Source of the DNA: Candidatus Methylomirabilota bacterium
GTDB taxonomy: Bacteria > Methylomirabilota > Methylomirabilia > Methylomirabilales > Methylomirabilaceae
DNA: 64,000 bases
Direction of reading: 5' to 3'
Assembly (NCBI GenBank): GCA_003104975.1
Contig: PQAM01000010.1
Coordinates: forward strand, 486,577-550,576
The notes under the pieces are model-generated. The model saw only the letters and a list, made by a program, of their open reading frames with translations, did no database searches and was not told the origin of the DNA. The position numbers and the translations under genes are program-made. Positions 1,258 through 57,257 of this stretch are shown piece after piece (the stretch's first letter is position 1; the number at the start of each line of letters is the position of its first letter).

Positions 1258-1328
1258 TGCTGAAGCCAAGGTGCGGTCGGGAGTGCTTCAACTGCTGGAA
1301 GTAATCGTGTAAGAAAGGAGGAATAGCC

Positions 1329-1772: not shown

Positions 1773-1782
1773 GGAGAGTGCG

Positions 1783-2301
1783 ATGAAGACAGCCACGGTT
1801 GGACGCAAGCGGTACGACATCGCATCGTCCAAAAAGAGCGTCGACACTGCGACCGATTCCTACCTGGCCAAGGGCGCGCCCGGTAAGATGGTGTGCCACG
1901 GATGCCATGCGATCTCGACGGGGAGGCGATGGTATCAGGATGAGGCGGCGTACGCCAAGCTTCTCAAGGCGGGAACGGTGAAAGAGATCTTCTGTCCGGC
2001 ATGTGAAAAGATTCGCGACAGCTATCCAAGCGGGCAGGTAACGCTGAGGGGGGCGTTCCTGGCCGAGCATCAGGATGAGATTCTGCACATCATCAGCAAC
2101 GAGGAGAAACGGGCCAGGGAGCGCAATCCGCTCCACCGGATCATGGGGCTGCGCGAGGAGAACGGACAGCTTGAGGTTACGACGACCGATGAGAAGCTGG
2201 CGCAACGGATCGGACGGGAGCTTCACAAGGCCTGTGGGGGGACCGTCGAGTACGGCTGGTCGCATGGCAACAAGTTCCTTCGCGTGCAGTGGGAGCGTTG
2301 A
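1783..2301 (+). CDS. BCAM0308-like zinc-ribbon protein
   Basis: A 172-residue protein with a CHGC pair near residue 40 and a CPAC pair near residue 72, forming a probable zinc ribbon. The C-terminal half (about 110-170) resembles RNA-binding alpha-beta segments of NMD3-like proteins (TTDEKLAQRIGRELHKACGG). It resembles conserved proteins labelled BCAM0308, which have no established function. The ATG at 1783 is chosen over an in-frame TTG at 1765 because GAGGAG stands at 1771-1776 and the upstream option would overlap the hsp20 stop. The stop is 11 bp before the MAT gene, so co-transcription is likely. Confidence 0.65.
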   Translation: MKTATVGRKRYDIASSKKSVDTATDSYLAKGAPGKMVCHGCHAISTGRRWYQDEAAYAKLLKAGTVKEIFCPACEKIRDSYPSGQVTLRGAFLAEHQDEILHIISNEEKRARERNPLHRIMGLREENGQLEVTTTDEKLAQRIGRELHKACGGTVEYGWSHGNKFLRVQWER

Positions 2302-2312
2302 GGGGGAGCCCG

Positions 2313-3515
2313 ATGCCGCCGGTGCGTGTGCAACGGTTGCAGCAGCCGCCCATCGCCGAGCAGCCGATCGAGATCGTCGAGCGGAAGGGGTTGGGCCATC
2401 CCGACTCGATCTGCGACGCCGTGATGGAAGAGATTGCGCGGGCCATCAACGCCGAGTATCAGCAGCGCTTTGGCCGGGTCCTGCACAACAACATCGACAA
2501 GGCCCTTCTTGTCGCCGGACGGGTGCGACGGCGGCTCGGGCGGGGGCGCGTGCTGCAACCGATGGAGCTGGTGATCGGCGATCGCGCCACGTTTCGCGTC
2601 GGGCGGGTCCGCGTCCCGATCAGGGAGATCGCGGTCGAGGCGGCGAAGGGGTGGTTTCGCAGGTCGCTGCGTCACGTCGACCCGAACAAGCACCTGCGGT
2701 ATCGGGTAGTCCTGGCCGAGGGATCCGAGGAGTTGGCCGACATCTTCAGTCGTGAGGGGGTCAGGGAATCCAATGACACCTCGGCGGCGGTCGGCTATGC
2801 GCCTCTGAGCGAGACCGAACAGATCGTCCTCTGGGTCGAGCGATACCTGAACTCCTCCGACTTCAAGACGGCATTTCCCGAAACAGGGGAGGATGTCAAG
2901 GTGATGGGGATCCGCTCGGACCGGGAGCTGAATCTGACAATAGCCATGCCGCTGTTGTGCAGGGCCATTGCGTCGGAAGCAGCCTATTTTCGCAAGAAGG
3001 CGGAGGTTGTAGAGGTCCTGCGCCGGGCGCTGCCGACCTCGCCGGGACTGGATCGCATCGAGCCGACCTTGAACCCACTGGATCGTGAGGGCCGCGGGAT
3101 GGGCGGCATGTACCTGTCGCTGCTGGGTACCTCGGCGGAGGACGCCGATTCCGGACAGGTGGGACGCGGCAACCGCGTCAATGGGGTGATTCCGCTGAAC
3201 CGTCCGGTCGGCAGTGAGGCGGCGGCCGGGAAGAACCCGGTCAGCCATGTCGGAAAGATCTATACGGTCTTGTCGCATCGGATGGCCGACCAGATCTACC
3301 GGCGGGTTGGCGGGGTGCGCGAGGTCTACGTCTGGCTTGTGGGGCAGATCGGTCGGCCGGTCGATCAACCCTGGACGGCGGTCCAACTGATCCCGGCATC
3401 GGATACGGAGGATGACCGGATTACGCGGGAGTGCAGATTGGTCATTGAGCAAGAGCTGAGTCGTTTAACCGATTTTTGTCTGGAATTAACCGAGGGGAAA
3501 TATCCTGTTTGCTAA
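2313..3515 (+). CDS. archaeal-type methionine adenosyltransferase (S-adenosylmethionine synthetase)
   Basis: About 400 residues, the length of the archaeal MAT family, which makes S-adenosylmethionine from ATP and methionine. It is unrelated in length and motif layout to bacterial MetK. Recognisable are the N-terminal ERKGLGHPDSICDAVME stretch, the central GNRVNGVIPLNRP and GKNPVSHVGKIY segments, and the ERY/LNSSDFK region. The ATG at 2313 follows AGGGGGAG; a GTG at 2289 inside the upstream gene is less likely. The presence of this version in a bacterium is typical of some thermophilic and deep-branching lineages and suggests ancient transfer. Confidence 0.92.
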   Translation: MPPVRVQRLQQPPIAEQPIEIVERKGLGHPDSICDAVMEEIARAINAEYQQRFGRVLHNNIDKALLVAGRVRRRLGRGRVLQPMELVIGDRATFRVGRVRVPIREIAVEAAKGWFRRSLRHVDPNKHLRYRVVLAEGSEELADIFSREGVRESNDTSAAVGYAPLSETEQIVLWVERYLNSSDFKTAFPETGEDVKVMGIRSDRELNLTIAMPLLCRAIASEAAYFRKKAEVVEVLRRALPTSPGLDRIEPTLNPLDREGRGMGGMYLSLLGTSAEDADSGQVGRGNRVNGVIPLNRPVGSEAAAGKNPVSHVGKIYTVLSHRMADQIYRRVGGVREVYVWLVGQIGRPVDQPWTAVQLIPASDTEDDRITRECRLVIEQELSRLTDFCLELTEGKYPVC

Positions 3516-3535
3516 GCCATGGAAAGGAGCCGACG

Positions 3536-4180
3536 ATGCGAGTAAAGGATCGAATGAGGCGCTCACTGGTGAGTATCGCACAGTCCGACACGCTGGATCA
3601 CGCGATGACGACGTTAAAGCGGTTCAATATCCGCCACCTGCCGGTGGTCAAGGGGGACCGCATTGTGGGGATCGTCTCGGACCGTGACGTGAAAAAGGCT
3701 GCGCCTTCTCCCTTTGACTATCCGACCGCGGAGGAGTTTCGAGCCTTTACATCCGCAGTGGCTGTCAAGGAGATCATGACGAAGGAGGTGGTAACGGTGA
3801 CGCCGCTCACCCCCATTGAGGAGGCAGCCAGCCTGATGAGCGAGAGGCGGATCGGGGCACTGCCGGTTGTCCAGGAGGGGCGGCTGGTCGGGATGCTGAC
3901 CGAGACCGATGTCCTGGGTGTCATGACCGAGATGATGGGGGCGACGCAGACCGCGTCTCGAGTGGAGATTGAGATTCCAGCGAGCGCGGGGACGCTGACT
4001 GATGTCATCGGGATCGTTGAGAACCAGCAGGTGGAGATTGCCAGCCTTGTGACGTTGCCGTGTCGTGAGGGGGCGAGGCGGCTGGTGATCCTTCGGCTGC
4101 GGACCATCAATCCGGACCCGGTCGTCCGAGCACTGGAGCAGCGCGGCTACCCGCAGGTTGTGGGTGAGTTTGTGTCTTAG
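3536..4180 (+). CDS. CBS-domain pair protein with C-terminal ACT-like domain
   Basis: 214 residues: CBS motif 1 at about 5-60 (MRRSLVSIAQSDTLDHA... and GIVSDRDVKKA), CBS motif 2 at about 75-130 (MTKEVVTVTPLTPIEEA..., GMLTETDVLGV), then an ACT-like ligand-binding region at about 140-205. Such proteins (AcuB-like) sense adenosine nucleotides or amino acids and regulate partner enzymes or transporters. The ATG at 3536 is preceded by GGAAAGGAG. It sits between MAT and a universal stress protein, all + strand. A second CBS-only protein lies upstream of KorA at 33.3 kb. Confidence 0.85.
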   Translation: MRVKDRMRRSLVSIAQSDTLDHAMTTLKRFNIRHLPVVKGDRIVGIVSDRDVKKAAPSPFDYPTAEEFRAFTSAVAVKEIMTKEVVTVTPLTPIEEAASLMSERRIGALPVVQEGRLVGMLTETDVLGVMTEMMGATQTASRVEIEIPASAGTLTDVIGIVENQQVEIASLVTLPCREGARRLVILRLRTINPDPVVRALEQRGYPQVVGEFVS

Positions 4181-4187
4181 TGGAGCC

Positions 4188-4997
4188 ATGCAGAAGATCC
4201 TGATGAGCGTGGACGGGTCGTTCGCCGCAGAGGCGGGGGCGCGTTACGCCTTGGCGCTCGGCAAGGCCCTTGGGGCCGAGCTTGACCTGCTGTTCGTCGC
4301 CGGCGATCAATCGGCCCCCGCGATGAAACGGGCCGAGGAATCGCTGGTACGCCTGCTTCGGCAGGCGCACGCGCTTGGCCTGAAGGCGCGGAGCGTCACC
4401 GAGATCGGCGATCCGGTACGGGTGATTCAGGACTATGTGGCGCGCGAGGGAGTCACGCTGACCATGGCGTCGGTGACCGGACCGGAGGCGGCGCATCGCC
4501 TCCTGCGCGAACTGCCCTGCGCCATGCTGCTGGTTCGGGTGGTCCACCCCGGACGGATGGCGTCGCCGCACGAGATTCTGGTTCCCGTCTACGGCGGCGA
4601 ATTCGAGGGGGGCGGTCTCGAGGCGGCGGCCGATCTGCTGGCCCGACTGGGCGCATTCTGGCATGCCCGTGTCGTTCTCTTTCGATTGAGACGGCCGCTT
4701 GCGCGTCTGTTCGACCGTCCGCGCCTCGTCGACGAGACGCTGGAGCAGGCGGAACGGTCGCTGCATCCCCTGATCGCCGCGCTCGCGCGCCGGGGCCTGG
4801 CGCCGGCAATGCGGGTGTCCTGGGGTCGTCGGCACGGCCCCGGCATTACGGCTGAGGCGGCGGCCAGGCGTCATGACCTCATCTTTCTTGGGACAAAGGG
4901 GCCGAAGAGTGTCCTGCAACGGCTGCGTCGTGGGACCGTCGACCATGTGGTGCGGAAGAGCCCCTGCGACCTGATGCTCTTCCGTCCGGCCGCTTAA
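4188..4997 (+). CDS. tandem universal stress protein (two USP domains)
   Basis: 269 residues made of two USP folds: residues 1-130 (MQKILMSVDGSFAAEAGARYAL start) and about 135-269 (HEILVPVYGGEFEGGG..., ending with the nucleotide-binding-like segment FLGTKGPKSVLQRLRRGTVDHVVR). The second domain carries the better GxxG...S/T-type ATP loop. The ATG at 4188 is 7 bp after the CBS gene stop. It is 29 bp upstream of the P-type ATPase, so CBS, USP and ATPase probably form an operon and may jointly tune ion transport; that functional link is inference. Confidence 0.85.
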   Translation: MQKILMSVDGSFAAEAGARYALALGKALGAELDLLFVAGDQSAPAMKRAEESLVRLLRQAHALGLKARSVTEIGDPVRVIQDYVAREGVTLTMASVTGPEAAHRLLRELPCAMLLVRVVHPGRMASPHEILVPVYGGEFEGGGLEAAADLLARLGAFWHARVVLFRLRRPLARLFDRPRLVDETLEQAERSLHPLIAALARRGLAPAMRVSWGRRHGPGITAEAAARRHDLIFLGTKGPKSVLQRLRRGTVDHVVRKSPCDLMLFRPAA

Positions 4998-5026
4998 GAT
5001 CGGACGCAGGCGGGGGATGGGCGACC

Positions 5027-7783
5027 ATGCAGATTCACCGTCTGACGGTCGAAGAGGCGCTGAAGGCCCTCGGAACTAGCGACCAGGGGTTGAGCGAGGC
5101 CGAGGCGGAGAGACGACTCCACGAATTCGGCCTCAACGAACTTCAGGCCGCCGAACGTATCCCGGTCTTCGCCATGCTGACGCGCCAGTGTACGCACTTT
5201 CTGGCCCTCCTGCTGTGGGCGGCGGCGGCGCTGGCGTTTATTGCGGATTGGATGAAGCCGGGCGAGGGGATGGATCTGCTCGCCTGGGCCATCATCGGGG
5301 TCATCGGCGTCAACGCCCTCTTTTCCTTCGTTCAGGAATACAAGGCGGAGCGGGCGATCATCGCCTTGAAGCGCCTCCTGCCGATGCGCGTCAAGATCGT
5401 TCGGGCCGGCGGGATCAGGGAGGTCACGGCATCCGACCTTGCGCCGGGTGATCTCGTGATCCTGGCCGAGGGGGATCGGGTCCCGGCCGATGGGCGGGTG
5501 ATCGCCGCGGTTCAATTCCGGGTCGACAATGCGCCGCTTACGGGCGAATCGATCGCCAAGAGTCGTACATCCGACGCCGCAACGGCCAAGTCGCTCGTTG
5601 AGAGCCCGAATGTCGTCTTCGCCGGCACGACGGTCCTCTCAGGGACGGCGAGGGCGGTCGTCTTCGCCACCGGGATGAACACCGAGTTCGGCAAGATCGC
5701 CCACCTGACGTCGGGGATCGAGGCCGAGCTGAGTCCGCTGCAGCAGGAGATCCGAAAGGTGACCCGGCTGATCGCGGCGATCTCCATCGGCATCGGCTTC
5801 GCCTTCTTTGGACTCGGGGTCCTGATCGGTCGGAGCTTCTGGGAGAATTTCGTCTTTGCAGTGGGACTTCTGGTCGCGAACGTCCCGGAGGGTCTGCTTC
5901 CGACAGTCACCCTTGCATTGGCAGTCGGCGCGCAACGGATGGCCAAACGAAAGGCGCTCATGAGGAATCTGGCCTCGGTGGAGACGCTGGGATGCGCCAC
6001 CGTGATCTGCACCGATAAGACCGGGACGCTTACGGAGAATCGGATGGCGGTGACCCGTCTGTATATCGACGGCCGCGAGTTTCGCGTATCGGGACGTGCT
6101 GTCACTACCGAGACAGGCACGGCGGTGGCCCCTGATCTCCTGCAGCAGTGGGCGCCGCTCTTCGCCATCGCCGTCGGGTGCAACAATGCGGGTCGCCGTC
6201 ACGATCCGAACGGTTCGGGAACGACCTGTGTCGGCGATCCGACAGAGATTGCCCTGCTCCAGTTCGCGGATGCGGTGCTGCCGAACGGACCCAGCGTGTC
6301 GCCTCGAGTAGGGGAGTGCCCGTTTGATGCCGACCGGCGGCGGATGGCCACGATTCATGCGACAGCGTCCGGCGGACAGGTTGTCTATGTCAAGGGCGCT
6401 CCGGAGGCGGTTCTGCCGATCTGCCGCTCTCTCTATCGCGATGGGCGCACGGTCCCTCTTGGGGAGGCCGAGCGTCGGGCAATCGTGGACCGGCTGAATG
6501 TCTTCGGGGGCTCGGCCCTGCGGGTCCTGGCCCTGGCGTACCGGGAGTTGCCGACAGGGGCGCGGCTAGCGTTGATGGAAGAGGCGGAGCAGGACCTGAC
6601 CTTTGTCGGTCTGGCGGCCATGCTTGATCCGCCGCGACCGGAGGTCCCGGAGGCGGTCGCCCGCTGCAGGCAGGCCGGGATCAGGCCGATCATGATCACC
6701 GGCGACAACAGCCGCACCGCCCTGGCGATCGCGCGGACTATCGGGATGGTACGAAACGAAAAGGCGCCGGTCCTCGAGGGGAGTCGGATCGAACAGATGC
6801 CGGATGAGGAGTTGAAGACCGCCCTTGCCGGTCCGGAGATCGTCTTTGCGCGGATGACCCCCACGCAGAAGATGCGGGTCGTGACGCTGCTCAAGGAAAT
6901 GGGAGAGGTGGTCGCGGTGACAGGCGACGGCGTCAACGACGCGCCGGCCCTGAAGAAGGCCGATATCGGGATCGCCATGGGGATCGTCGGGACGGATGTG
7001 GCGAAGGAGGCGGCCGACATTGTCCTGCTCGACGACAACTTCGCCACCATCGTGAACGCCGTCGAAGAGGGGCGGGCGGTCTATGAGAACCTCCGGAAAT
7101 TCGTCACCTATATCCTGGCCAGCAACATTCCGGAGATCGTGCCCTATCTGGCCTCGGTCCTGTTTCGGATTCCGCTTCTGCTGACGATCGTGCAGATCCT
7201 GGCTGTCGACCTGGGCACCGATATGCTGCCGGCCTTAGGCCTTGGGGCCGAACCGCCGGACGCCAACACGATGAATCGACCGCCGAGATCCAGGGACGAG
7301 CGCCTGCTGAATCTGCCGGTACTGGCTCGAGCGTACCTGTTCCTCGGACCGATGGAGGCAGGGGCAGCCATGACCGCCGGACTCTGGTATCTCAGTCGTA
7401 GTGGTTGGGCGTGGGATATTGACCTGGCGGCGACGAGCCCGCTCTACAGACAGGCGACGACGGTGGCGTTCGCCGCGATTGTCATTTGCCAGGTGGCGAA
7501 CGTCTACGCCTGCCGGAGTCGGAGGGCATCGGTTTTTTCTGTCGGTCTGTTTACCAATCGACTGATCGTGTGGGGTATTGCGGTCGAGCTGGCTATTCTG
7601 GGCCTGATCGTCTATAGCCCGATCGGGCATCGGATCTTCGGGACCGATGCCTTTTCCGGAGAGTTCTGGTGGCTATTGATCGGCTGTGCGATACTGTTGG
7701 TGGTTGTAGAAGAGACACGAAAGGGGATCGTCCGCTATCGTGAACCGGGGAGAAGACTTCGTTACCGGGAGGGGACCGCATGA
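5027..7783 (+). CDS. P2C-like cation-transporting P-type ATPase
   Basis: 918-residue membrane pump. The phosphatase motif TGES is at 172-175, the phosphorylated Asp is D330 in CTDKTGTLTENRM, and the hinge TGDGVNDAPALKKAD is near 630. The M4 sequence NVPEGLLPTVTLALA and the M6 sequence VDLGTDMLPALGL match the P2C group (animal Na+/K+ and H+/K+-ATPase alpha) and not the NxPEGLP of SERCA-type pumps or the metal CPC motif. The C-terminal EETRKGIVRYR also fits. About ten membrane segments are visible. No beta subunit is seen nearby, as usual for prokaryotic members. The transported ion (Na+, K+ or H+) is not proven. Confidence 0.9.
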   Translation: MQIHRLTVEEALKALGTSDQGLSEAEAERRLHEFGLNELQAAERIPVFAMLTRQCTHFLALLLWAAAALAFIADWMKPGEGMDLLAWAIIGVIGVNALFSFVQEYKAERAIIALKRLLPMRVKIVRAGGIREVTASDLAPGDLVILAEGDRVPADGRVIAAVQFRVDNAPLTGESIAKSRTSDAATAKSLVESPNVVFAGTTVLSGTARAVVFATGMNTEFGKIAHLTSGIEAELSPLQQEIRKVTRLIAAISIGIGFAFFGLGVLIGRSFWENFVFAVGLLVANVPEGLLPTVTLALAVGAQRMAKRKALMRNLASVETLGCATVICTDKTGTLTENRMAVTRLYIDGREFRVSGRAVTTETGTAVAPDLLQQWAPLFAIAVGCNNAGRRHDPNGSGTTCVGDPTEIALLQFADAVLPNGPSVSPRVGECPFDADRRRMATIHATASGGQVVYVKGAPEAVLPICRSLYRDGRTVPLGEAERRAIVDRLNVFGGSALRVLALAYRELPTGARLALMEEAEQDLTFVGLAAMLDPPRPEVPEAVARCRQAGIRPIMITGDNSRTALAIARTIGMVRNEKAPVLEGSRIEQMPDEELKTALAGPEIVFARMTPTQKMRVVTLLKEMGEVVAVTGDGVNDAPALKKADIGIAMGIVGTDVAKEAADIVLLDDNFATIVNAVEEGRAVYENLRKFVTYILASNIPEIVPYLASVLFRIPLLLTIVQILAVDLGTDMLPALGLGAEPPDANTMNRPPRSRDERLLNLPVLARAYLFLGPMEAGAAMTAGLWYLSRSGWAWDIDLAATSPLYRQATTVAFAAIVICQVANVYACRSRRASVFSVGLFTNRLIVWGIAVELAILGLIVYSPIGHRIFGTDAFSGEFWWLLIGCAILLVVVEETRKGIVRYREPGRRLRYREGTA

Positions 7784-45658: not shown

Positions 45659-46096
45659 ATGGTAATCAGGCACGAAACGTTTACGGTAGCGACGGAGGAT
45701 CGGCTCCAGTTCATGGACCTGACAAAGCGTGTGCGAGATCTGATCCAGGGGCATAGGATCAAGCAGGGGTTGGTCGTCCTCAACTCTCTTCACACGACGA
45801 CGGCGCTGTTCATCAATGAGTGGCAAGAGGCCCTGCTGCACGACATCCAGGATCTGCTGAACCGGCTGGTCGGACAGGGAGACGGCTATCGCCATAACGA
45901 TCCATCGTACTCTGATTGCGATCGGAGCAACGCCGACTCGCACCTTCGTTCGCTCCTGCTTGGCCGGCAGCTTTCGGTTCCGGTCGTAGATGGGGAGATG
46001 AACCTCGGAACCTTTGAGTCCATTATCTTTGCCGAGCTGGACGGACCGAGGGAGCGGCAGATTCAACTCCAGATACTGACTGCGAAAGAGGGTTGA
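45659..46096 (+). CDS. YjbQ/UPF0047-family protein, divergent paralogue
   Basis: 145 residues of the YjbQ family (a secondary thiamine-phosphate synthase activity is reported for E. coli YjbQ). QGLVVLNSLHTTTALFINEWQEALLHDIQDLL, HNDPSYSDCDRSNADSHLRSLLLG and the ending DGPRERQIQLQIL carry the conserved His, Asp and Arg positions. A closer paralogue is at 48531, and a decayed third copy at 55451. Start after GGAGGGAGGGC. Confidence 0.85.
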   Translation: MVIRHETFTVATEDRLQFMDLTKRVRDLIQGHRIKQGLVVLNSLHTTTALFINEWQEALLHDIQDLLNRLVGQGDGYRHNDPSYSDCDRSNADSHLRSLLLGRQLSVPVVDGEMNLGTFESIIFAELDGPRERQIQLQILTAKEG

Positions 46097-47679: not shown

Positions 47680-48534
47680 ATGTCCCTGATCGATCTACAC
47701 GCTCACTCGACCGCTTCAGACGGCGTACGTTCTCCCCAAGACCTTGTTGGTCTTGCGAAAGCGTCAGATATTGCCGTCCTGGCCGTCACCGATCACGATA
47801 CGCTCGAGGGGTTGCCGGCGGCCATAGCTGAAGGGGAACGGGTGGGACTGCAGATCGTCGCAGGCGTCGAAATCACCGCCCATGCGGAGGAGCTTGAGGT
47901 TCACATCCTTGGTCATTTCATTGATCCGTCCGATCACCAACTGGCCGAATTTTTGACCTCCTCCCGCAGTGATCGAATCAGGAGGGTGCATCGGATGATC
48001 GAAAAGCTCTGGACTCTCGGTCTCCCGCTTGACGTCGGTGAGGTCGTCAAGCTGGCGCCGGGCTATTCGGTCGGACGCCCCCATGTGGCACAGGCGATGA
48101 TCCAACGCGGGTATGTGACGTCGTTGAAGGATGCCTTCGACCGGTATCTGACATCCGGCAAGCCCGCCTATGTGGAACGATCCCGGATTCCTGCTTCTAT
48201 GGCGATACGTTCGATCAAGGCGGCTGGAGGTCTCGCATCTCTGGCGCACCCTGGAGATTACCACCGCGACGAGATCGTTCCCTTCCTTGTGCAGCACGGC
48301 CTTGACGGCCTTGAGGTGTATCATCCGGAGCATGACACGGAATCGGTATTCCGGTATGAGCGTATGCGTCTGGAATACGGCCTGGTGGCGGTCGGCGGCT
48401 CCGACTATCACGGCACCGGCGGCCTTCGCTCGATAGGGCTCGGGAGGCCGGCCCTGCCGGAGGCGCGGTTCGACGAGTTGGTCGCCGCATGTTCCGCTGC
48501 CCGCACCCACCCTCTTCGAACTGAGGTGGGATGA
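47680..48534 (+). CDS. PHP-domain phosphoesterase (TrpH/RNase AM-like)
   Basis: 284 residues. The metal-binding PHP motifs are DLHAHSTASDG, VTDHDTLEG, GVEITAH (Glu) and, at the end, GSDYHGTGG, as in YciV/TrpH nucleotide phosphatases that remove phosphate from 3',5'-bisphosphonucleotides or degrade RNA from the 5' end. The C-terminal GSDYHG with LARPALPEARF is normal. The yjbQ gene starts inside its stop (4-bp overlap), so they are coupled. Confidence 0.88.
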   Translation: MSLIDLHAHSTASDGVRSPQDLVGLAKASDIAVLAVTDHDTLEGLPAAIAEGERVGLQIVAGVEITAHAEELEVHILGHFIDPSDHQLAEFLTSSRSDRIRRVHRMIEKLWTLGLPLDVGEVVKLAPGYSVGRPHVAQAMIQRGYVTSLKDAFDRYLTSGKPAYVERSRIPASMAIRSIKAAGGLASLAHPGDYHRDEIVPFLVQHGLDGLEVYHPEHDTESVFRYERMRLEYGLVAVGGSDYHGTGGLRSIGLGRPALPEARFDELVAACSAARTHPLRTEVG

Positions 48535-48935
48535 CCCCGCAGATGCGCGAGTTTTTCGTCAAGACGACGCACAAGTATCAGGTGGTCGATATCACATCGA
48601 GAGTTCGGGAGATCGTGGCGCAGGACGGTCTGGAGGAAGGGCTGTGTTGTGTTTTTGTGCCGCATGCGACCGCGGCGGTCACCATCAACGAGAATGCCGA
48701 TCCCAACATCGGCGACGATCTTCAAGAGGCGTTAGGAAAGCTGATCCCGGAGGGGGTGTGGCGTCACGATCGGATCGACGACAATGCGGCGGCCCACATC
48801 AAGGCGACCATCCTCGGCCCGAGCGAGACGGTGCCGGTCAAGCACGGGCGGTTGGTGTTGGGCACCTGGCAGAGCATTATGCTCGTAGAGTTTGACGGCC
48901 CGCGCGAGCGGCGGATCATCGTCCAGGTCAGCTAA
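48531..48935 (+). CDS. yjbQ: YjbQ/UPF0047-family protein
   Basis: 134 residues. VPHATAAVTINENADPNIGDDL, the GVWRHDRIDDNAAAHIKATILGPSETVPV core and DGPRERRIIVQV are typical of the family, with the conserved His, Asn-Glu-Asn and Arg residues. It is expressed with the PHP gene (4-bp overlap). A near-identical but frameshifted copy lies at 55451-55854, on the far side of the reverse-transcriptase operon. Function in E. coli relates to thiamine phosphate, not proven here. Confidence 0.9.
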   Translation: MTPQMREFFVKTTHKYQVVDITSRVREIVAQDGLEEGLCCVFVPHATAAVTINENADPNIGDDLQEALGKLIPEGVWRHDRIDDNAAAHIKATILGPSETVPVKHGRLVLGTWQSIMLVEFDGPRERRIIVQVS

Positions 48936-48974: not shown

Positions 48975-50090
48975 CTACTGGGGGAAGAACTTGTAGATGA
49001 AGAAGCCGTGCTCGGGCTTCTCCTGGACAAATTTCATGGCCGAGATAAGAAGTTCCTGGTTGCCATCCCCGTCGATGTCTCCCACTGCTACGTCAGGGGT
49101 GTTCATATGGGTCGTGGCCCTGAGCTCAACCGTCGGCTGGGCCTCCATTCCTGTTGGCAGCTTGACCTCGTAGATCTCGTGTCCGCGAATGAAGAGGAGG
49201 TGGGGCCGCCCCAGCGCGCGCACGAGGACAAGCCTATTGCCCATGCATTCCTCAAACGGGAGGACAGACTGGGCCAACGCTCTCATGCCCTTGATCTTTA
49301 CATCATACCCGTAGACCTCGAATTGGCACTTCTTGTGGGGCTCGTCGTAGGTGGACGTCCCGTCTCCAAGGATCAGCAGTTCGTCACGCCCATCGCCATC
49401 CAGGTCCAAAGGGACGAGGCTCTGCACATCGTACTTGAGGTGGATCTTGGAACCCTGACGAAAGCCCTTACCCTCCCATGTGAAGAATACCACGTCGTCG
49501 AAAGCATATTCGGGGTCCTCCGGCATCCACCACGCCGCATCAATGGCCAGAGTTGTCAGCTTCGGGTCCACAAGCTTCCCGGCAACGAGAGCTTGGGGCT
49601 GGGCATCGAGGGGCACGCGAAACGTCTTCCGCTTCCACTGCTCCCCTTCTTTTTGAACCACTAGAAAGGCTCCTGCGGCTTTCTCCGGATCCTCGAAAAT
49701 AGGGGCATAGTAAATGAGCTCGCCTTTCGAGTTGCGATCGATATCGGCGACCACGAGTGCACTTAAGCTAACATTTCCCTCTTCGAGCATTCCAGTTTCT
49801 CTGAATGCCGCTAGGCTCCAGGTATAGAGATGTAGCTCAGTGAGACCGGCTCGCTGAGGGTTTCGGCTTTCAACGACGAGCACATCGGACTTCTCACCCT
49901 CCAGTCTGCCAGCGGCGAGGGTGCGGGTAAAGAGGTGGAGATTAGGGGCCAGAGTTTCCGAGAGGAAAAACGCTAGCTTAAGGGCGTCTCGTTGCGGCGC
50001 GGGAGGATAGGTCTCTGCCGCGCTTACTGTTCCCAAAAAGATCAGACCGATCGCGGCAACGGCGATAATAAGTGGACGCATGATTGTCAC
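48975..50090 (-). CDS. exported VCBS/FG-GAP-like repeat protein
   Basis: 371 residues. A signal peptide (MRPLIIAVAAIGLIFLGTVSAA, allowing the second ATG at 50081) is followed by a protein with repeated acidic loops: DIDRNSKGEL, DLDGDGRDEL and DIDGDGNQEL, i.e. DxDxDG calcium-binding loops as in VCBS/FG-GAP beta-propellers. No catalytic motif. It is the last gene of the operon that begins with the reverse transcriptase, and overlaps the upstream gene by 4 bp. Likely a periplasmic or surface binding protein. Confidence 0.8.
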   Translation of the reverse strand: MTIMRPLIIAVAAIGLIFLGTVSAAETYPPAPQRDALKLAFFLSETLAPNLHLFTRTLAAGRLEGEKSDVLVVESRNPQRAGLTELHLYTWSLAAFRETGMLEEGNVSLSALVVADIDRNSKGELIYYAPIFEDPEKAAGAFLVVQKEGEQWKRKTFRVPLDAQPQALVAGKLVDPKLTTLAIDAAWWMPEDPEYAFDDVVFFTWEGKGFRQGSKIHLKYDVQSLVPLDLDGDGRDELLILGDGTSTYDEPHKKCQFEVYGYDVKIKGMRALAQSVLPFEECMGNRLVLVRALGRPHLLFIRGHEIYEVKLPTGMEAQPTVELRATTHMNTPDVAVGDIDGDGNQELLISAMKFVQEKPEHGFFIYKFFPQ

Positions 50091-51217
50091 TGCTCCAAAA
50101 TGTTTGGGAAGTGGAAGTCAGAAACTCGTATGTAATCACGCCACTGACCATGGACGTGGGTAAGTTTCGGGGCGCAGTAGCTATAAGTTGCCCCTCCGTA
50201 GAGCTTCGCTCTTCTCGCAATTTCAACGCAATCGTCTCGTTTTCCTGGACCCCCTCCCTCATCCAGAATCGGTGACCAATCCACGGCCCAACCGTACTGG
50301 TGGAGGCTGTGATCTTTGGACCCTCGGTCCTTTTTGAGGGACTCATTGTACTGAGGGGTGCGGTAGGTGCTGGAACGATTATTCGCAAGTCGGTAGGCGG
50401 TATCTCTCTGTCGGGTCTGGCGCACCCAATCCGCATAAGCCGTCTGCGTGGCGGCCTCTCCAGCCGGCAGCTCGGGCTTGAGAGGGATGCGATCGCCTAC
50501 GAAGTCTTCTCGCGCAGGGACCTTGATGGCGTGGTCCACATATTGCTGGCGAACGGGGTCTGGGCTGCGCTCTGTCACGGTGACCGGGGTGGCGTCCCAG
50601 GTGTTCCCAAAGATGGTCACCTTCGCCATGAAGGTATAGGAAAGTGGCCCCGGCCTTCCGTCCTTCCCGTGAGGGGGCACATCAATCTGGGGCGTCCACG
50701 TTTCTCCCTGGCCGGTCAGGGTCGTCGATGGGCCACTGGTGGGATCAGCCGGCAGCTCCCAGCTAATCCCAGACGCGAACTGCGTATGGATGCGATCCGG
50801 CGAGATCGTCGCCGATGCCGTGAGGTTCGCCACCCGTGTCTCAGTCTCCGTGATAAACATCCAGGTTGCCTGGGGCTGGACGATGGTTAGCGTGGGGGCG
50901 ATGATCGCGATGGTGTGACTGGCCGAACATGGGGGACCTTTCGGGTTCAGATAATTGACGCTGATGGTCACCGTCTCCGGGCTGCTCCCTGTGTATGTGA
51001 AGGTGCCGGAAGCTCCCAAGGGGCTGAGGCCATGGGTCAGTGACCAGTCAAAGGACCCTCCTGGAACGGTGGCCGTTGCGGTCAGTGTGATGGTCTCGCC
51101 CACCACCGCCTCCGATGGCCCACTAACCGTGACGGTGCAGACCCAGGCATGGACAGGAGATTCCCACAGGACCAGCAGCACCCACCCCACGAAGAGACTT
51201 GCGGCGCGCGCCCTCAT
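50087..51217 (-). CDS. exported M15-type (VanY/DacB-like) peptidase with Ig-like N-terminal region
   Basis: 376 residues. The signal peptide is residues 1-25 (ending VHAW). Residues 27-120 look like an Ig/PKD fold (VSGPSEAVVGETITLTATATVPGG, TYTGSSPETVTISVNY). From about 240 the sequence matches zinc D-Ala-D-Ala peptidases: SLHQYGWAVDWS (SxHxxGxAxD) and HVHGQW for the last zinc His. It could cut peptidoglycan stem peptides. It overlaps both neighbours by 4 bp. A peptidoglycan hydrolase in a reverse-transcriptase operon is unusual. Confidence 0.75.
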   Translation of the reverse strand: MRARAASLFVGWVLLVLWESPVHAWVCTVTVSGPSEAVVGETITLTATATVPGGSFDWSLTHGLSPLGASGTFTYTGSSPETVTISVNYLNPKGPPCSASHTIAIIAPTLTIVQPQATWMFITETETRVANLTASATISPDRIHTQFASGISWELPADPTSGPSTTLTGQGETWTPQIDVPPHGKDGRPGPLSYTFMAKVTIFGNTWDATPVTVTERSPDPVRQQYVDHAIKVPAREDFVGDRIPLKPELPAGEAATQTAYADWVRQTRQRDTAYRLANNRSSTYRTPQYNESLKKDRGSKDHSLHQYGWAVDWSPILDEGGGPGKRDDCVEIARRAKLYGGATYSYCAPKLTHVHGQWRDYIRVSDFHFPNILEQ

Positions 51218-52668
51218 CGCGGCCTGACCCCTGTCGAACTCCCATCGCTTACGCTCTTCAGCCGCTTGGCAGCCTCCTTTTTCCAGACACCATCTCCACC
51301 GTCACCCACGGATTGATAGAGCTGAACGGCCTGATCCATGTGGCCGAGTCCTTCGTGAGCCCGACTCAGCTCATAGGTGGCGTAATCGTGATCTTTGTGC
51401 TTGGGATACCGGAACCGAAACTCCTCGTAGATCACCGCAGCCTCCGCGTGCCGCCCCTGATCCTGGCGAGTCTTGCCGAGCCAGAGATACGACTGGGAGG
51501 TGATCTGCTCAATGGCACTCTTGAGCCCGGGATCACGAGCCTGCCCTCTCAAGGTTTCGAACTCCGAGGCGATGGCGGCCGCCGCTTGTTCCACTACGTC
51601 GTAGCGGCCAACGGCATGTCCATGCCGCTCCATCTCGTAGTACGCCTTCATGGCCTCATAGCTTCCTGGCTGGGTCTCGATCACCTGATTGGCGAGGGCC
51701 AAGGCCGACGCAAAGGTTGCCTGGGCCAAAGCATGCTTCCCCTTCCAGTGGAGGTCTCGAGCAAAGTTCATCTGGCTGCGGTAGTCGGCAATGCCGTTGA
51801 CAATGTCGGCGATCTGTTTGAGCTCCTCCTCAGCCAGCTCTTTCCGTCCCGCGGCCCAGTGGCAGCTCACAATCCGCTGGTAGGCCTTTTGCACATAGAA
51901 GAGGTTTTGAGGGTAGCGCTCGATGTAGGCCCGGTAGTGGCGAATGGCTGCCTCACAATCCCGGGCGGCCATGGCCTTTCGACCGAGGAGGAAGAGGGCC
52001 TTCTTGGCAAAAGCATCATCACCCGGACGCTCAGCAATCCACTGGAGTAGGGCCTTGCCTGCCTCCACGTCTTCGTATTTGAGGTAGATCACGGCCAGGT
52101 CGTAGGTGTCTTTGGTCTCGAACGCTCGGGTCGGATAATGGCGTTGGAGGTGGCCGATAAGCTGTGCCTGAGCCTCACGCTCGCCGTGTTTCTCATAGGA
52201 GGCTAACAGCTTCGAAGCCGCCCGAAGCGCCACCTTGATCTCCTCAGGGCGTTGTGAGGTGGCGTGTTCGCTGACGATACGTGCGAGGAGCTGACGTCCG
52301 TCCGCCTCGGCGCCGTACTCCAGGTACATATGCGCCAGCCGCTCGAGGTCTTTCAAGTCACACTCCGGGGTGGGGTAGGTCGCTTTGAGGTAACTGACGA
52401 CCCGCTGAATCTCCTCGGTCTGCCCCTGGACTTGGTAGACTCTCAAGAGCTTCTGATAGATCGAGATCGAGGTCTTGATCTGCTGAGAAAATAGTGAGAG
52501 GCACTGCTGGTAGCGCGTGATCGCCTGAGCGTAGTTCTTGTCCCTCTCGGCGCTGAGGCCTTGCGTGAGGCACTCCTTTTCCCCGGCGGGCGCCTCCGAG
52601 ACCAGAAGGGGTATGCTCAGGAGGAGCAGGGCAAGGCTCAGTCCCACCTGTGCTCTTCGCGCCGTCAT
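51214..52668 (-). CDS. exported TPR-repeat protein
   Basis: 484 residues. After a signal peptide (about 1-29) come at least nine helical pairs of TPR type, for example YAQAITRYQQCLSLF, AIRHYRAYIERYPQNLFYV and AAVIYEEFRFRYPKHKDHDYATYELSRAHEGLGHMDQAVQLY (given here in parts). The last two repeats look like a YbgF/tol-pal-type TPR. It likely scaffolds the periplasmic products of the operon. Overlaps the nucleosidase gene by 4 bp and the peptidase gene by 4 bp. Confidence 0.82.
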   Translation of the reverse strand: MTARRAQVGLSLALLLLSIPLLVSEAPAGEKECLTQGLSAERDKNYAQAITRYQQCLSLFSQQIKTSISIYQKLLRVYQVQGQTEEIQRVVSYLKATYPTPECDLKDLERLAHMYLEYGAEADGRQLLARIVSEHATSQRPEEIKVALRAASKLLASYEKHGEREAQAQLIGHLQRHYPTRAFETKDTYDLAVIYLKYEDVEAGKALLQWIAERPGDDAFAKKALFLLGRKAMAARDCEAAIRHYRAYIERYPQNLFYVQKAYQRIVSCHWAAGRKELAEEELKQIADIVNGIADYRSQMNFARDLHWKGKHALAQATFASALALANQVIETQPGSYEAMKAYYEMERHGHAVGRYDVVEQAAAAIASEFETLRGQARDPGLKSAIEQITSQSYLWLGKTRQDQGRHAEAAVIYEEFRFRYPKHKDHDYATYELSRAHEGLGHMDQAVQLYQSVGDGGDGVWKKEAAKRLKSVSDGSSTGVRPR

Positions 52669-53486
52669 GGCGTAGCTTCTGGGGTGACAGGTGAGGACGA
52701 CATCTGCCTGACGAACTCCGTCACGATCTGGCCCAATCGTCCCTCAAAGCGTCGGAGCGAGTCCACGTACTCGTCCCCGGCCTGATCGCCTGCCCGGTCG
52801 GTGATGAGACGGATGAGGAGAAATGGCACGCCATGGGCTTCACAGGCCTGGGCCACAGCCGCCCCGGTCATATCCACGGCCTTGGCGCCGAAGCGTTTGA
52901 CCAGCCACTCCTTCTTCGGCTCGGAGGCGATGAACTGGTCGCCGGAGACAAGAGGCCCCTCCACGACATGAAATCCTCCATTCCGCTCTGAGAGTCGCAA
53001 GGCTGCCTCTCGTGCAAGGGTAGTGAACTTTCGCTGAGCCGCTGAGGAATCTTTTGTTCTCGACCCCTCGTTATCTCGCCCCTCCCAGATCAGCCCGTAC
53101 GGCTTCATGGTGCCGGTATCGTGCTCCAAGGCCGATTGGGCGATCAGGATATCGCCCGGCTCAAGCGCATTATCAAGGGCCCCGGCAGTCCCGAGGGAGA
53201 TGACCCTGTCCATGGGGAAGTGCTGGAGGAGCATCTGGGTGGTTATGGCATTCTGGATCTTCCCCCTGGGCGATCGGATGATCACCACCGGAACAGCGCC
53301 AATCCTCCCTGAGTAGAACTCTCGCCCATTCCTCACCACGACCCCTTCCCCTTCCATCGCCTTTCGGACCACCTTGAGGTCGGCTGTGCGGGCTACGATG
53401 ATCCCCAGGGCGGCCTGCGCCACGACCGGCAGCACAAGCGCGTGGAGGACGACGATCAGGCAGAGCGCCTTCCCCTTGAACGGCAT
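52665..53486 (-). CDS. exported nucleoside phosphorylase/nucleosidase-fold protein with substituted active site
   Basis: 273 residues with a signal peptide (MPFKGKALCLIVVLHALVLP... ending AQAA). The fold is PNP_UDP type: SLGTAGALDNALEPGDILIAQ near 97, and VDMTGAAVAQACEAHGVPFLLIRLITDRAGD near 195-225 (given as motif names). In MTA/SAH nucleosidases this last part reads VDMEGAA; here the catalytic Glu is Thr, while the Asp of xxxTD/SD is kept. It is either a changed-specificity enzyme or a binder. It begins 9 bp after the reverse-transcriptase stop. Confidence 0.8.
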   Translation of the reverse strand: MPFKGKALCLIVVLHALVLPVVAQAALGIIVARTADLKVVRKAMEGEGVVVRNGREFYSGRIGAVPVVIIRSPRGKIQNAITTQMLLQHFPMDRVISLGTAGALDNALEPGDILIAQSALEHDTGTMKPYGLIWEGRDNEGSRTKDSSAAQRKFTTLAREAALRLSERNGGFHVVEGPLVSGDQFIASEPKKEWLVKRFGAKAVDMTGAAVAQACEAHGVPFLLIRLITDRAGDQAGDEYVDSLRRFEGRLGQIVTEFVRQMSSSPVTPEATP

Positions 53487-53495
53487 GATCCGCCT

Positions 53496-54710
53496 TTAAA
53501 TCCTCCACTCCACACGCTTGAGCATGTCAAGCAGTTGCACCCCGGCCCTGGGATTTACCATGCGCGCGAGACTCACGCGCCCGCAGAGCGAACGCCTGAA
53601 GGCCTCCATGGCGAACCCGTCAGGGTCTTGGAGCCCCTTCTCAGTGAGGGCCCACCGAATCCGCTGGGTCTCCAAGTCCGCGGTGAGGCAGTTGTGGATG
53701 ACGGCCCGGAGCTTTTTCAGTTCCTGGCGAGGAAGGTTGGGTTTCTCATTGACGATCACGCCGGTGACCTGCTGTCGGCTCCCCTTGCGCATGACCCGGA
53801 TCTTCTCCTCGTGAACCTCAAACCCTTCCTCCCGGATGATTTCCTTGAAGAACGGAAGGCGCCGGACGATCCCCCCGTCCTCGCTGGAGATGGTCATGTC
53901 ATCTGCATAGCGGCTGTAGCGAAAGTTGAGCTGGTCCCCGAGGCGAGACAGTCTCAGATCGAGCCTCCGGCAGATCAGGTTAGAGAGAATCGGGCTCGTC
54001 GGTGCGCCGGTTGGAATAACATCGTGATAGGTGGTAAGCTGTGTCAACAGCAGCGCTACACCGTGAGGATAGCCGAGGGAGCCCAAGCACCCCAGAACCC
54101 GCTCGAAGGTGATGCTGGGGAAGAAGTCCTTCACATCCAGGTTGATGACGACCTGCCTGTCGAGGTGGAGCCGGGCGTTCGTCAGGATGGAGCGCTCTCC
54201 CCTGAAGCCGTGGGCGTCGGGATGGAGCTTGACCCGCTCCAGCAGTGCCGCGATTCGCTGCTGGATCTCCTTGAGCGGAGGTCTTGGGGCTTGGATCTTT
54301 CGCCTCTGGCCGTTTGCTTTGGGGATGGAGAAGACGTCGTAGTATCTGTCGGTACAAGTGGCGAGATCCGAGAGCTCGTTTTCGGAGACCTCTAAAAGTT
54401 TGGCGAGATGGGTACGAGTCAGGATGGGGATAAGCCCCCGTTGGACCATGGCCTCGGCGTAGGTGCTGAGAAAACTCAGGGCCCGGGGATCCAAGTGGCG
54501 GTTGGCTTCCAGGAGGGCCCTGACGGCCTTCCTCCGGCTTCCAGGTAGGTCGGCATCCTCGCTGTAGAAGGTGACCTTGTCCCCCTGCTGGAGGCGGATC
54601 CGGGCATAAGCGGCCAAGAGGTCTACCAATTCAGGTTCAACCCCGGCCCTCAGGTTGACCTGGATCAGGTTTCTGATGAAGGCCTCTTTGTCCTCATCCC
54701 ATCGAGCCAT
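53496..54710 (-). CDS. retron-type reverse transcriptase
   Basis: 404 residues. The core runs from about 120 to 340: KIQAPRPPLKEIQQRI, HGFRGERSILTNARLH with the retron NAxxH motif (178-182), the first metal Asp in NLDVKDFFPSI (192-200), GAPTSPILSN (235-244), YADD (268-271) with SRYADDMTIS, and VTGVIVNEKPN (VTG 315-317), the second retron hallmark. The N-terminal 110 residues are helical and have no obvious domain. No group II maturase, DGR or CRISPR-Cas1 part is present. The start ATG (54710) lies 20 bp beyond a 135-bp structured region that looks like its msr-msd. First of five genes in the downstream operon. Confidence 0.9.
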   Translation of the reverse strand: MARWDEDKEAFIRNLIQVNLRAGVEPELVDLLAAYARIRLQQGDKVTFYSEDADLPGSRRKAVRALLEANRHLDPRALSFLSTYAEAMVQRGLIPILTRTHLAKLLEVSENELSDLATCTDRYYDVFSIPKANGQRRKIQAPRPPLKEIQQRIAALLERVKLHPDAHGFRGERSILTNARLHLDRQVVINLDVKDFFPSITFERVLGCLGSLGYPHGVALLLTQLTTYHDVIPTGAPTSPILSNLICRRLDLRLSRLGDQLNFRYSRYADDMTISSEDGGIVRRLPFFKEIIREEGFEVHEEKIRVMRKGSRQQVTGVIVNEKPNLPRQELKKLRAVIHNCLTADLETQRIRWALTEKGLQDPDGFAMEAFRRSLCGRVSLARMVNPRAGVQLLDMLKRVEWRI

Positions 54711-54729
54711 GGCGCCCTTGCTCGAAAAA

Positions 54730-54864
54730 GTGAACCGGGGTCCCTTTTACTGAGACTCCTGAGCACGTAGCCGTCACGGCTACGTGCGCTGGCATGCATC
54801 GTGCGCGTCCCGCGTAGCGCGAGACCCTGCCGGATGGCAGATCTAAAAGAGGGCCCCGGTTCAC
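54730..54864 (-). ncRNA. candidate retron msr-msd RNA
   Basis: The region between the Cys-rich gene and the reverse transcriptase is closed by an inverted repeat: 54730-54749 with 54844-54864, 19 of 20 positions paired, starting with 11 perfect base pairs (GTGAACCGGGG/CCCCGGTTCAC), as for retron a1/a2. Inside, in minus-strand order, are three hairpins: a 5-bp stem with 4-nt loop (54840-54827), an 8-bp stem with 3-nt loop (54825-54807) and an 11-bp perfect stem with 3-nt loop (54787-54763). Short msr-like hairpins near a1 followed by a longer stem near a2 is the retron layout. The priming G cannot be fixed by eye. The a1 arm overlaps the stop of the upstream gene. Confidence 0.6.
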
Positions 54865-55217
54865 ATCCTGACCAACGAGAGGGAAAGGTACGGCTTAGGA
54901 GAGGTTTTGAGGTACGCCATGTTTGGGAAGGGGATCTGGCAGCACGCCGGGATTTCCCCTCTTCCGCTCAGGCATCCGTCGCATCGCCTCTCCTTTTTCT
55001 CGCACGCGATGTCGTACACGAGCCGCTGCAGATGGATCCCGCAATTTGCGCAGTAGGTCCGATATTCTCGGGGGAGTGGACGATGGAGGCTTCCACACTT
55101 CCGGCAGCGCAATCCCTCTTCGGCCCACCCCTTCTCGGCGCCAAGACCGAGACCAATGATTACTGAGGCCTTGAGGGTGACTCCCATAAACCCTCGCCGA
55201 GAGATCTCTCTTACCAT
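54861..55217 (-). CDS. small Cys-rich protein with twin-arginine signal
   Basis: 118 residues. SRRGFMG at 6-12 is a Tat motif (S/T-R-R-x-F-x-x), followed by a hydrophobic stretch to about 30. The mature part has zinc-ribbon-like CRKCGS and CANCG pairs and more Cys (CEKKERRCDGC, CC). The family is unknown. It is the first gene after the promoter at 55341-55313 and ends inside the putative msr-msd a1 arm. A Tat-exported metal protein suits the periplasmic character of the operon. The gene could also be unrelated to the transcriptase. Confidence 0.6.
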   Translation of the reverse strand: MVREISRRGFMGVTLKASVIIGLGLGAEKGWAEEGLRCRKCGSLHRPLPREYRTYCANCGIHLQRLVYDIACEKKERRCDGCLSGRGEIPACCQIPFPNMAYLKTSPKPYLSLSLVRM

Positions 55218-55312
55218 CTTCCACCCGCCCCCCTCGGACCTTACGCACTGAGCCGGATCGCCTCCTCACCCTCGTCTGTCAGCCGCTCTGGACGAAAAGA
55301 TGAATATTGCTG

Positions 55313-55341
55313 TATAAATCAAAATCATAGGAAATTGTCAA
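55313..55341 (-). promoter_or_regulatory. sigma70 promoter of the reverse-transcriptase locus
   Basis: On the minus strand TTGACA (55341-55336), 17 bp, TTTATA (55318-55313), in an AT-rich stretch. Expected start near 55306, 90 bp before the Cys-rich gene, so one transcript could cover 55306 to 48975. Confidence 0.65.
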
Positions 55342-55450: not shown

Positions 55451-55854
55451 ATAACGCCGCAGATGCGCGAGTTCTCCGTCAAGACGACGCACAAATTGCA
55501 GGTGGTCGATATCACGTCGAGGGTTCGGGAGATTGCGGCACAGGACGGTCTGGAGGAGGGGCTGTGCACGGTCTTTGTCCCGCACGCGACGGCGCCGTCA
55601 CCATCAACGAAAATGCCGATCCCAACATCGGCCTGGATCTCCAGGACGCGCTGGTGAAGCTGATTCCGGAGGGGGTTTGGCGCCACGACCGGATCGACGA
55701 CAACGCGGCGGCCCACATCAAGGCGACCATCCTCGGCCCGAGTGAAACGGTGCCGGTGAAAAACGGAAAGCTGATGTTGGGGACCTGGCAGAGCATCATG
55801 TTCATGGAGTTCGACGGCCCCCGCGAGCGCCGCGTCATCGTCCAGGTCCGGTGA
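55451..55854 (+). pseudogene. decayed yjbQ copy (start codon lost, 1-nt deletion)
   Basis: 404 bp that align along their whole length with the 405-bp yjbQ at 48531-48935. The start codon is ATA instead of ATG, and one base is missing near 55590-55596, which changes VPHATAAVTINEN to a frameshift after VPHATA. The downstream part (GAVTINENADPNIGLDLQDAL...IIVQVR-type) is otherwise intact. It is non-functional unless a downstream start is used. Confidence 0.88.
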
Positions 55855-55936
55855 AGACGGTGTTGCCGCGGCGGACAATGCCGCCAAACGTCTTACCTAT
55901 CAGTTGCTGAGAGATCCGAACGGCGGCAGGGGCGGG

Positions 55937-56191
55937 TCATGCCGTGTCCACGAAGGTTGCAACCGGCACTTTCTCCTGCTTGGTCAACTCGCGCCAGTGT
56001 AGCCGCATTCGCTCGAGTTCCTTGAGCGTCTCAGCAGTGAGATAGCTCTCGCCGCAGCTCAAACAACTGACAACGGGCACGTTACGTACGAGGAAGCTGG
56101 AGCTGCCCCTGCCGACGGTCTGTGTCAGGCGTCGGACCTTCGCACCGTTCTTACCGCAGATATCACACTTCATATCATCGTATACTACCAT
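55937..56191 (-). CDS. YgiT/MqsA-type zinc-finger antitoxin-like protein
   Basis: 84 residues. CDICG and CLSCG (two CxxC pairs about 35 apart) form the N-terminal zinc finger of YgiT/MqsA-type proteins. The C-terminal half is short, with no helix-turn-helix. In similar loci a DUF4258 toxin gene sits upstream; here only a short frame (DPRPDATRIEW) remains upstream, so the toxin seems lost. Start ATG 56191 or 56173 (MKCDICG). Confidence 0.72.
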   Translation of the reverse strand: MVVYDDMKCDICGKNGAKVRRLTQTVGRGSSSFLVRNVPVVSCLSCGESYLTAETLKELERMRLHWRELTKQEKVPVATFVDTA

Positions 56192-56362
56192 TCTATCCGC
56201 GTGGCATCAGGTCGAGGGTCGTCACGATATGTGGAATTCTCTAGTCATTCTACGGGGTTGTCAACGAAATTTCAGAAGAGCCCACGGGGGCGGTGCCGCC
56301 ATGCCTGGCGGTGTGCTCATGGGCGTGAAAGTCTGTTGGGAGACCGCGCCACTCACTGACTC

Positions 56363-56459
56363 GTCATTGCGGGCGACCGGAGGGAGCGCGGCAATCTCAG
56401 CGTTTTTCAGATTGCGGAGAACGGTGAGATTGCTTCGTCGCGGCGCTCCTCGCAATGAC
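56363..56459. repeat. 97-bp palindromic repeat, copy 2
   Basis: GTCATTGCGGGCGACCGGAG at the start and CTCCTCGCAATGAC at the end, with GCAATCTCA and TGAGATTGC inside. Same family as 37927-38016. Confidence 0.75.
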
Positions 56460-56551
56460 CGACACGGGAGACTTTTGGAACAATGATGCGGACGGGAATA
56501 GGGGAGTGTTGGCCTGGGCATGATGATTCAACCCCCTAAGGCATAACTGGG

Positions 56552-56597
56552 TTGACATTGAGCGGTGCTAGTACCATAATGGTTCCATATTGTAACC
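56552..56597 (+). promoter_or_regulatory. promoter and operator-like palindromes of the vapBC-type pair
   Basis: TTGACA (56552-56557), 17 bp, CATAAT (56575-56580). The palindrome ACCATAATGGT (56573-56583) covers the -10 box and a near-palindrome GGTTCCATATTGTAACC follows (56581-56597), as expected for autorepression by the antitoxin-toxin complex. Confidence 0.6.
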
Positions 56598-56613
56598 GTT
56601 AAGGAGGCTCAAC

Positions 56614-56856
56614 ATGCCAGCGATTACCGTCAAAAATATTCCTCCTGATCTATACGAACTGCTCAAACGGTCGGCTGCGGCCAACCGGCGCAGCATCAAT
56701 AGTGAAGTGATTACCTGTATCGAGCGTGTGGTGCGGGGCCGGAAGATCAACACTGAGGCTCTGCTCGCGCGCGCACGAGAGCTGCGCCGGCAAACCAGGC
56801 GTCATCCAATCGCTGACAGTACATTCAAGGCAGCCAAACTTGTGGGCCGCCCGTGA
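56614..56856 (+). CDS. FitA/VapB-type antitoxin (ribbon-helix-helix)
   Basis: 80 residues. PAITVKNIPPDLYELLKRSAAANRRSINSEVI is the Arc/FitA ribbon-helix-helix, followed by an Arg-rich tail that binds the toxin. GTTAAGGAGG 6 bp upstream is a strong ribosome-binding site. Its stop overlaps the toxin start by 4 bp. Palindromes in the promoter are its likely operators. Confidence 0.9.
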   Translation: MPAITVKNIPPDLYELLKRSAAANRRSINSEVITCIERVVRGRKINTEALLARARELRRQTRRHPIADSTFKAAKLVGRP

Positions 56857-57257
56857 TCGTCGTCGACACAAATATAATCGGCTATTTGTACCTGGAAAGC
56901 GTGCATTCGGCGCAGGTTGAACGAGTCCTGCTGAAAGAGGGGGATTGGGCCGCGCCGTTGCTGTGGCGGAGTGAGTTTCGAAATGTGCTCGCCCTGTATA
57001 TTCGCAAGCGATGGTTGTCGTTAGAGGAGAGTGGGCAGATCATGAGTGAAGCGCTTAGCTTCATGGATGGTAACGAGTACCATGTTGACTCTGAACACGT
57101 GCTGAAGTTGGTTGCTGCGAGTTCGTGTTCGGCCTACGATTGCGAGTTTGTAGCGCTTGCCCAGGACCTCGGGATTACCTTGGTGACGGTCGACCAGCAG
57201 ATCCTGCGTGACTTCCCCGAGGTGGCCGTGTCGTTACTGGGCTTTATCGGTACCTAG
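56853..57257 (+). CDS. vapC: VapC-type PIN-domain RNase toxin
   Basis: 134 residues. PIN-domain metal ligands: VVDTNIIGYLY (Asp 4), WRSEFRNVLALY (Glu), and the C-terminal SAYDCEFVALAQDLGITLVTVDQQIL (Asp pair). It degrades RNA, often tRNA, when free of its antitoxin. GTG start overlapping the antitoxin gene; translation-coupled pair. Confidence 0.9.
   Translation: MIVVDTNIIGYLYLESVHSAQVERVLLKEGDWAAPLLWRSEFRNVLALYIRKRWLSLEESGQIMSEALSFMDGNEYHVDSEHVLKLVAASSCSAYDCEFVALAQDLGITLVTVDQQILRDFPEVAVSLLGFIGT

Follow-up and report, generated by a model that had tools for sequence, protein, structure and literature searches.

Effectors define the retron types, and those that have been characterised are either cytosolic or transmembrane. 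Retron Ec86, of type II-A, consists of a reverse transcriptase (RT) and an NDT-like effector, an enzyme acting on nucleosides or nucleotides. Retron Ec48 belongs to type IV and has a transmembrane effector, and type XIII retrons combine WGR/ARM and SWIM proteins with their RT. Toxic effectors of characterised retrons are kept in cytosolic ribonucleoprotein (RNP) complexes of the RT with multicopy single-stranded DNA (msDNA) (PMC12548924, PMC13405049). Here we describe a block of six genes, all on the minus strand, at positions 48975-55341 of a 64,000-nucleotide (nt) stretch of DNA from a Candidatus Methylomirabilota bacterium (the window, to which all positions refer), in which a genuine retron RT is followed by four genes for exported-type proteins. 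The original prediction, made from the sequence of this stretch, had placed the action of all known retron partners in the cytosol. This was too strong given the transmembrane effectors (PMC13405049), but soluble exported partners are found in none of the characterised retrons in the literature examined.

Our favoured reading, a tentative one that falls somewhat short of even chances, is that of a real retron of unassigned lineage whose output is a set of envelope-acting exported proteins, acquired as one block. If true, retron output would extend to the envelope and a different control logic would be needed, since a protein that is secreted cannot be retained by an RNP in the cytosol. Its compactness and defined borders make the block amenable to expression as a whole and to dissection one gene at a time.

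The retron and its operon-like block

The RT gene (53496..54710, minus strand) encodes a 404-aa protein with an N-terminal extension of about 90 aa that is not assigned to a family. Its NARLH, YADD and VTG motifs align with those of its relatives. The protein is matched by Pfam RVT_1 (2e-22), the only such match in the 3.0 Mb genome, and by PADLOC retron RT profiles down to 3e-95, the best of them being RT_XIII. The nearest solved chain by sequence is the Ec86 RT (3.2e-42), which is also the best PDB fold match (E 1.7e-24) of the AlphaFold model (mean confidence, pLDDT, 80). The retron-type RT first recognised from its NAxxH, YADD and VTG motifs is thus a genuine one. Retron Ec86 is also alike in having a partner that acts on nucleosides or nucleotides, but the gene that follows the RT here encodes a PNP/MTAN-fold protein with a signal peptide, and three more exported genes come after it.

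Between the upstream ORF (open reading frame) and the RT gene, and 19 nt before the latter, lies a candidate msr-msd noncoding RNA (ncRNA) of 135 nt (54730..54864, minus strand), closed by the arms a1 (54846-54864) and a2 (54730-54748) and supported by the inverted repeats I14 and I18. For the minus strand of 54726-54870, a folding energy of -76.3 kcal/mol compares with a mean of -50.9 in shuffled sequences (z -6.2), and none of 200 shuffles was as stable. The a1 end, UUUUA, is followed by a G at 54843, a candidate branching G at the position expected in Ec86-like retrons, and a strong hairpin at 54763-54787 is the likely msd stem. No Rfam match to the candidate ncRNA was found, and its assignment is structural, covariation having no basis without a homologue. 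With its a1/a2 arms and strong fold just upstream of the RT, the element answers to the msr-msd that had been proposed at this place, and msDNA may be made from it.

The six ORFs are present in the window as first described, with similar GC contents (57-62%). The first gene after the RT, for the PNP-fold protein (52665..53486, minus strand; 273 aa; PF01048, PNP_UDP_1, 9.7e-44), starts 9 nt after the RT stop, the spacing originally given. It is followed on the same strand by genes for an exported-type TPR protein (51214..52668; 484 aa), with a signal-like N terminus and matches to TPR families (Pfam TPR 2e-11), for an exported-type protein with an Ig-like N-terminal part and a C-terminal M15-type motif (50087..51217; 376 aa), and for an exported-type FG-GAP/DxDGDG-repeat protein (48975..50090; PF01839 1.5e-10). 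Starts within 4-nt overlaps had been claimed for the last three genes. Overlaps of this length join the PNP-fold gene to the TPR gene and the TPR gene to the M15-like gene, but the FG-GAP gene more likely starts, judging from the GGAG upstream, at ATG 50081, 5 nt past the M15 stop, than at GTG 50090 inside the overlap.

Sec-type signals can be read at the N termini of all four downstream proteins, as predicted. Under a crude leader rule (a hydrophobic stretch, a positive n-region and small-x-small), signal-like N termini occur in five of the six block genes and in two of the 54 other ORFs of the window. Gene spacing and leaders support one operon-like block of retron and exported-protein genes, over which a single transcript may run. 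The candidate promoter (TTGACA-17 nt-TTTATA; 55313..55341, minus strand) has a perfect -35 element, TTGACA (55341-55336). Its -10 element is poor (TTTATA with a spacing of 17 nt, or TATACA with one of 19 nt), and the site is absent from those listed by a consensus promoter scan. The same scan gave no minus-strand consensus promoter at the gene starts within the block.

For the M15-type peptidase, the zinc motifs SxHxxGxAxD and HxH are present as SLHQYGWAVD and HVH, but Pfam M15_4 reaches only E 0.13 and misses its curated cut-off. A collagenase PKD-like match to the same protein is weak (E 0.66), and its AlphaFold model was too poor to be used (pLDDT 37). The remaining gene, upstream of the ncRNA, encodes a small Cys-rich protein (54861..55217, minus strand; 118 aa) that carries the Tat-type motif SRRGFMG, in agreement with the Tat signal first noted, and CxxC pairs. 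It matched no Pfam, NCBIfam or PADLOC family, and elsewhere in the phylum it has one weak match, over 44 aa and zinc-ribbon-like.

Retron output or adjoining genes

The borders of the block are two yjbQ-type (UPF0047) genes. One is native (48531..48935, plus strand; PF01894 1e-43) and collinear with that of the congeners. The other is a second copy (55451..55855, plus strand) with a 1-nt frameshift and 85% identity to the first, a divergence much like that of yjbQ in the closest other species within the genus (84-86%). In the congeners, the lipA region comes within about 20 bp after yjbQ and the site is empty; here the interval is 8.4 kb and holds the block, the second yjbQ copy and toxin-antitoxin-like genes. 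The block, of about 6.5 kb, was probably acquired horizontally by recombination at yjbQ with a related species. It can be regarded as a linked unit because its six genes are nearly the entire cargo between the two yjbQ copies.

The most far-reaching form of coupling, a new kind of retron with soluble exported effectors of the periplasm or cell wall that are controlled through a shared transcript and not by sequestration of a cytosolic toxin, is less likely than not. In the favoured reading, the msr-msd would be the leader of the operon transcript, and the RT would bind it through the a1/a2-closed structure, prime at the branching G (54843) and produce msDNA in the cytosol, with the four genes tightly downstream as the output. 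Because the products leave the cytosol, control would most likely act on the shared transcript, before export, RT binding and reverse transcription of the leader lowering translation of the rest. A disturbed balance of RT, msDNA and transcript, for example by a phage, would then cause the exported proteins to be made in quantity; after Sec export, two of them, the M15-like peptidase and the PNP-fold protein, would act in the envelope. A working link of this kind is plausible but unproven, as the block is known from one genome, and the defence or surface-remodelling role once suggested for it is conjecture.

Two comparisons bear on this proposal. Several defence systems, DRT8 among others, employ proteins with a PNP fold as effectors (PMC10952713), and Cap17 of CBASS (cyclic oligonucleotide-based antiphage signalling system), Detocs and DRT8 share with the block a PF01048 fold beside a sensor module, which in DRT8 is likewise beside an RT. 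These effectors are, however, not described as exported, and the PNP-fold protein of the block matches the PN-superfamily effector of PADLOC only weakly (5.7e-07). Retron Ec48 also has an effector that acts at the envelope, but a membrane-inserted one, whereas those of the block would be soluble and exported, and the block RT is of another lineage.

Several observations weigh against the favoured reading. Exported proteins would not fit the holding of effectors in cytosolic RNPs, and co-acquisition is no proof of joint function. No second genome with this combination was found among phylum genomes, a scan of genome contigs, plasmids, phages and viral contigs, and the RT relatives examined, 33-45% identical, have different partners or lack any. 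Recurrence of the four exported partners beside RT homologues, to which the original prediction had looked, was thus searched for with a negative outcome. Across the 94 other phylum genomes, the RT, PNP-fold, M15-like and FG-GAP genes had no counterpart at the thresholds used, the TPR gene not being searched. The genome-contig scan with the RT, which requires an exact short-peptide match and can miss many relatives, gave 15 loci at 36-45% identity, none with the partners. No second copy turned up in plasmids, queried with the RT, PNP-fold, M15-like and FG-GAP proteins, in viral contigs, queried with four block proteins, or in phages, queried with the RT.

The residues of the PNP-fold protein count in the same direction. 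At the catalytic positions of MTAN (E. coli numbering), PDB alignments place Asp at Glu12 and Thr at Glu174 and keep Asp197, so that the residue set of methylthioadenosine/S-adenosylhomocysteine nucleosidases (Glu12, Glu174, Asp197) is incomplete. Nucleosidase activity cannot be assumed, because Thr stands in place of the ribose-binding Glu. This need not mean a dead enzyme, since the MTAP-like protein encoded by the same genome likewise has Thr in the Glu174 loop; a phosphorylase-like activity is possible.

On a level with the favoured reading, and equally just under even chances, stands the explanation that ncRNA and RT form an effectorless retron, or one whose effector was lost or swapped, and that the exported genes belong to an envelope or scavenging operon of no relation to it, sharing the block and perhaps the promoter but not the function. 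It accounts for the lack of recurrence and for signal peptides that are foreign to known retron logic, and lone retron RTs exist. In Retron-Sda1, where a retron RT and ncRNA similarly lie next to partners outside the known types, the neighbours HipA/DUF3037 defended without RT or ncRNA (PMC12548924). Against this explanation stand the 9 nt between the RT stop and the next gene, the cargo between the yjbQ copies, which is almost solely this operon, and the first place taken by a PNP-fold gene. One occurrence cannot separate the two.

A congener adds a case that can be taken either way. Two congeners hold other retron RTs, with 33-35% identity to that of the block. In one (G005), a gene for a helix-turn-helix protein lies upstream of the RT of a different retron. 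In the other (G008, locus L063, G008:C155, 4067-8112), genes for an exported TPR protein of 670 aa, whose N-terminal part is confined to this genome within the genus, and for a membrane protein come after an RT nearest to type VI and share its strand. An 89-nt gap with a promoter-like stretch separates this RT from the TPR gene, and the arrangement may hint at a theme or may, as the effectorless explanation would have it, show that such genes can merely adjoin a retron. A further pairing, of a Burkholderia retron RT with a 'D-Ala-D-Ala carboxypeptidase', was rejected as a parallel: the latter is a serine (SxxK) enzyme and lies about 340 bp away.

Affinities of the RT and rival placements

Considerably less probable, and already disfavoured, is a type XIII (or III-A) retron that has diverged and lost its usual partners. 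RT_XIII is the best PADLOC match of the RT, and the RT loci of the genome scan, 36-45% identical to it over the aligned core, resemble type XIII by profile (L012, L013) and have SWIM-/WGR-type genes upstream, namely SWIM_XIII and WGR_XIII genes in L013. The score, however, is 318 bits, on the level of the III-A-like RT of another locus, L065 (331), against 560-600 for these true type XIII RTs; with the III-A profile, the block RT obtains 288 bits against 473 for the RT of L065. The type XIII clade of the tree (support 95/98) leaves the block RT outside, and in the alignment three features of type XIII RTs are missing from this shorter protein: their N-terminal region, an insertion that precedes the LPQGAPTSP motif, and their C-terminal extension. 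PADLOC WGR_XIII and SWIM_XIII matched no protein of the block, and the partners of type III-A, a phosphoribosyltransferase (PRTase) and a winged-helix protein, are absent among the block genes according to PADLOC and Pfam profiles.

Because of these low scores and of its exclusion from the type XIII clade, the RT is best regarded on sequence as an unassigned lineage, fitting none of the known retron types, which are represented in the comparison by a limited sample of references. Its own placement is weak (88/57, with two long-branched congeners). Of the new type once proposed for this locus, an RT in no known type is what stands; a single occurrence cannot define a type, and its partners do not recur.

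The least probable proposal, to which we give very little credence, makes the PNP-fold protein the sole effector, cytosolic through inefficient export or through an internal GTG at codon 22 (53423) that would yield a leaderless enzyme, with the last three genes as passengers: this GTG lies a few codons before the domain start and PNP-fold effectors work intracellularly elsewhere (PMC10952713), but it has no Shine-Dalgarno sequence, and the well-formed hydrophobic leader, of Sec type by sequence, argues against cytosolic action of the Cap17-like kind.

Retrons of the type XIII-like kind were also seen in other bacteria. A plasmid of Methylobacterium bullatum (L064) carries an unannotated one at 1283-6389, in which a SWIM-type protein precedes an RT that has a hydrophobic tail at its C terminus, and hydrophobic segments like it are found at the ends of the corresponding Comamonadaceae RTs.

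Genes around the yjbQ copies

The interval between the second yjbQ copy and lipA (55937-57257) contains an ORF of MqsA/YokU-like antitoxin type, for which no toxin is obvious, and a VapBC-like pair (56614-57257), both missing at the collinear site of the congeners. A sequence of about 100 bp in the same interval (56361-56459) recurs in G005 (L053), where two copies lie side by side and point in opposite directions, and may be a mobile palindromic repeat. Finally, a further yjbQ paralogue (45659-46096), about 38% identical to the gene at 48531, is found 2.4 kb upstream of that gene, and the congeners have similar second copies.

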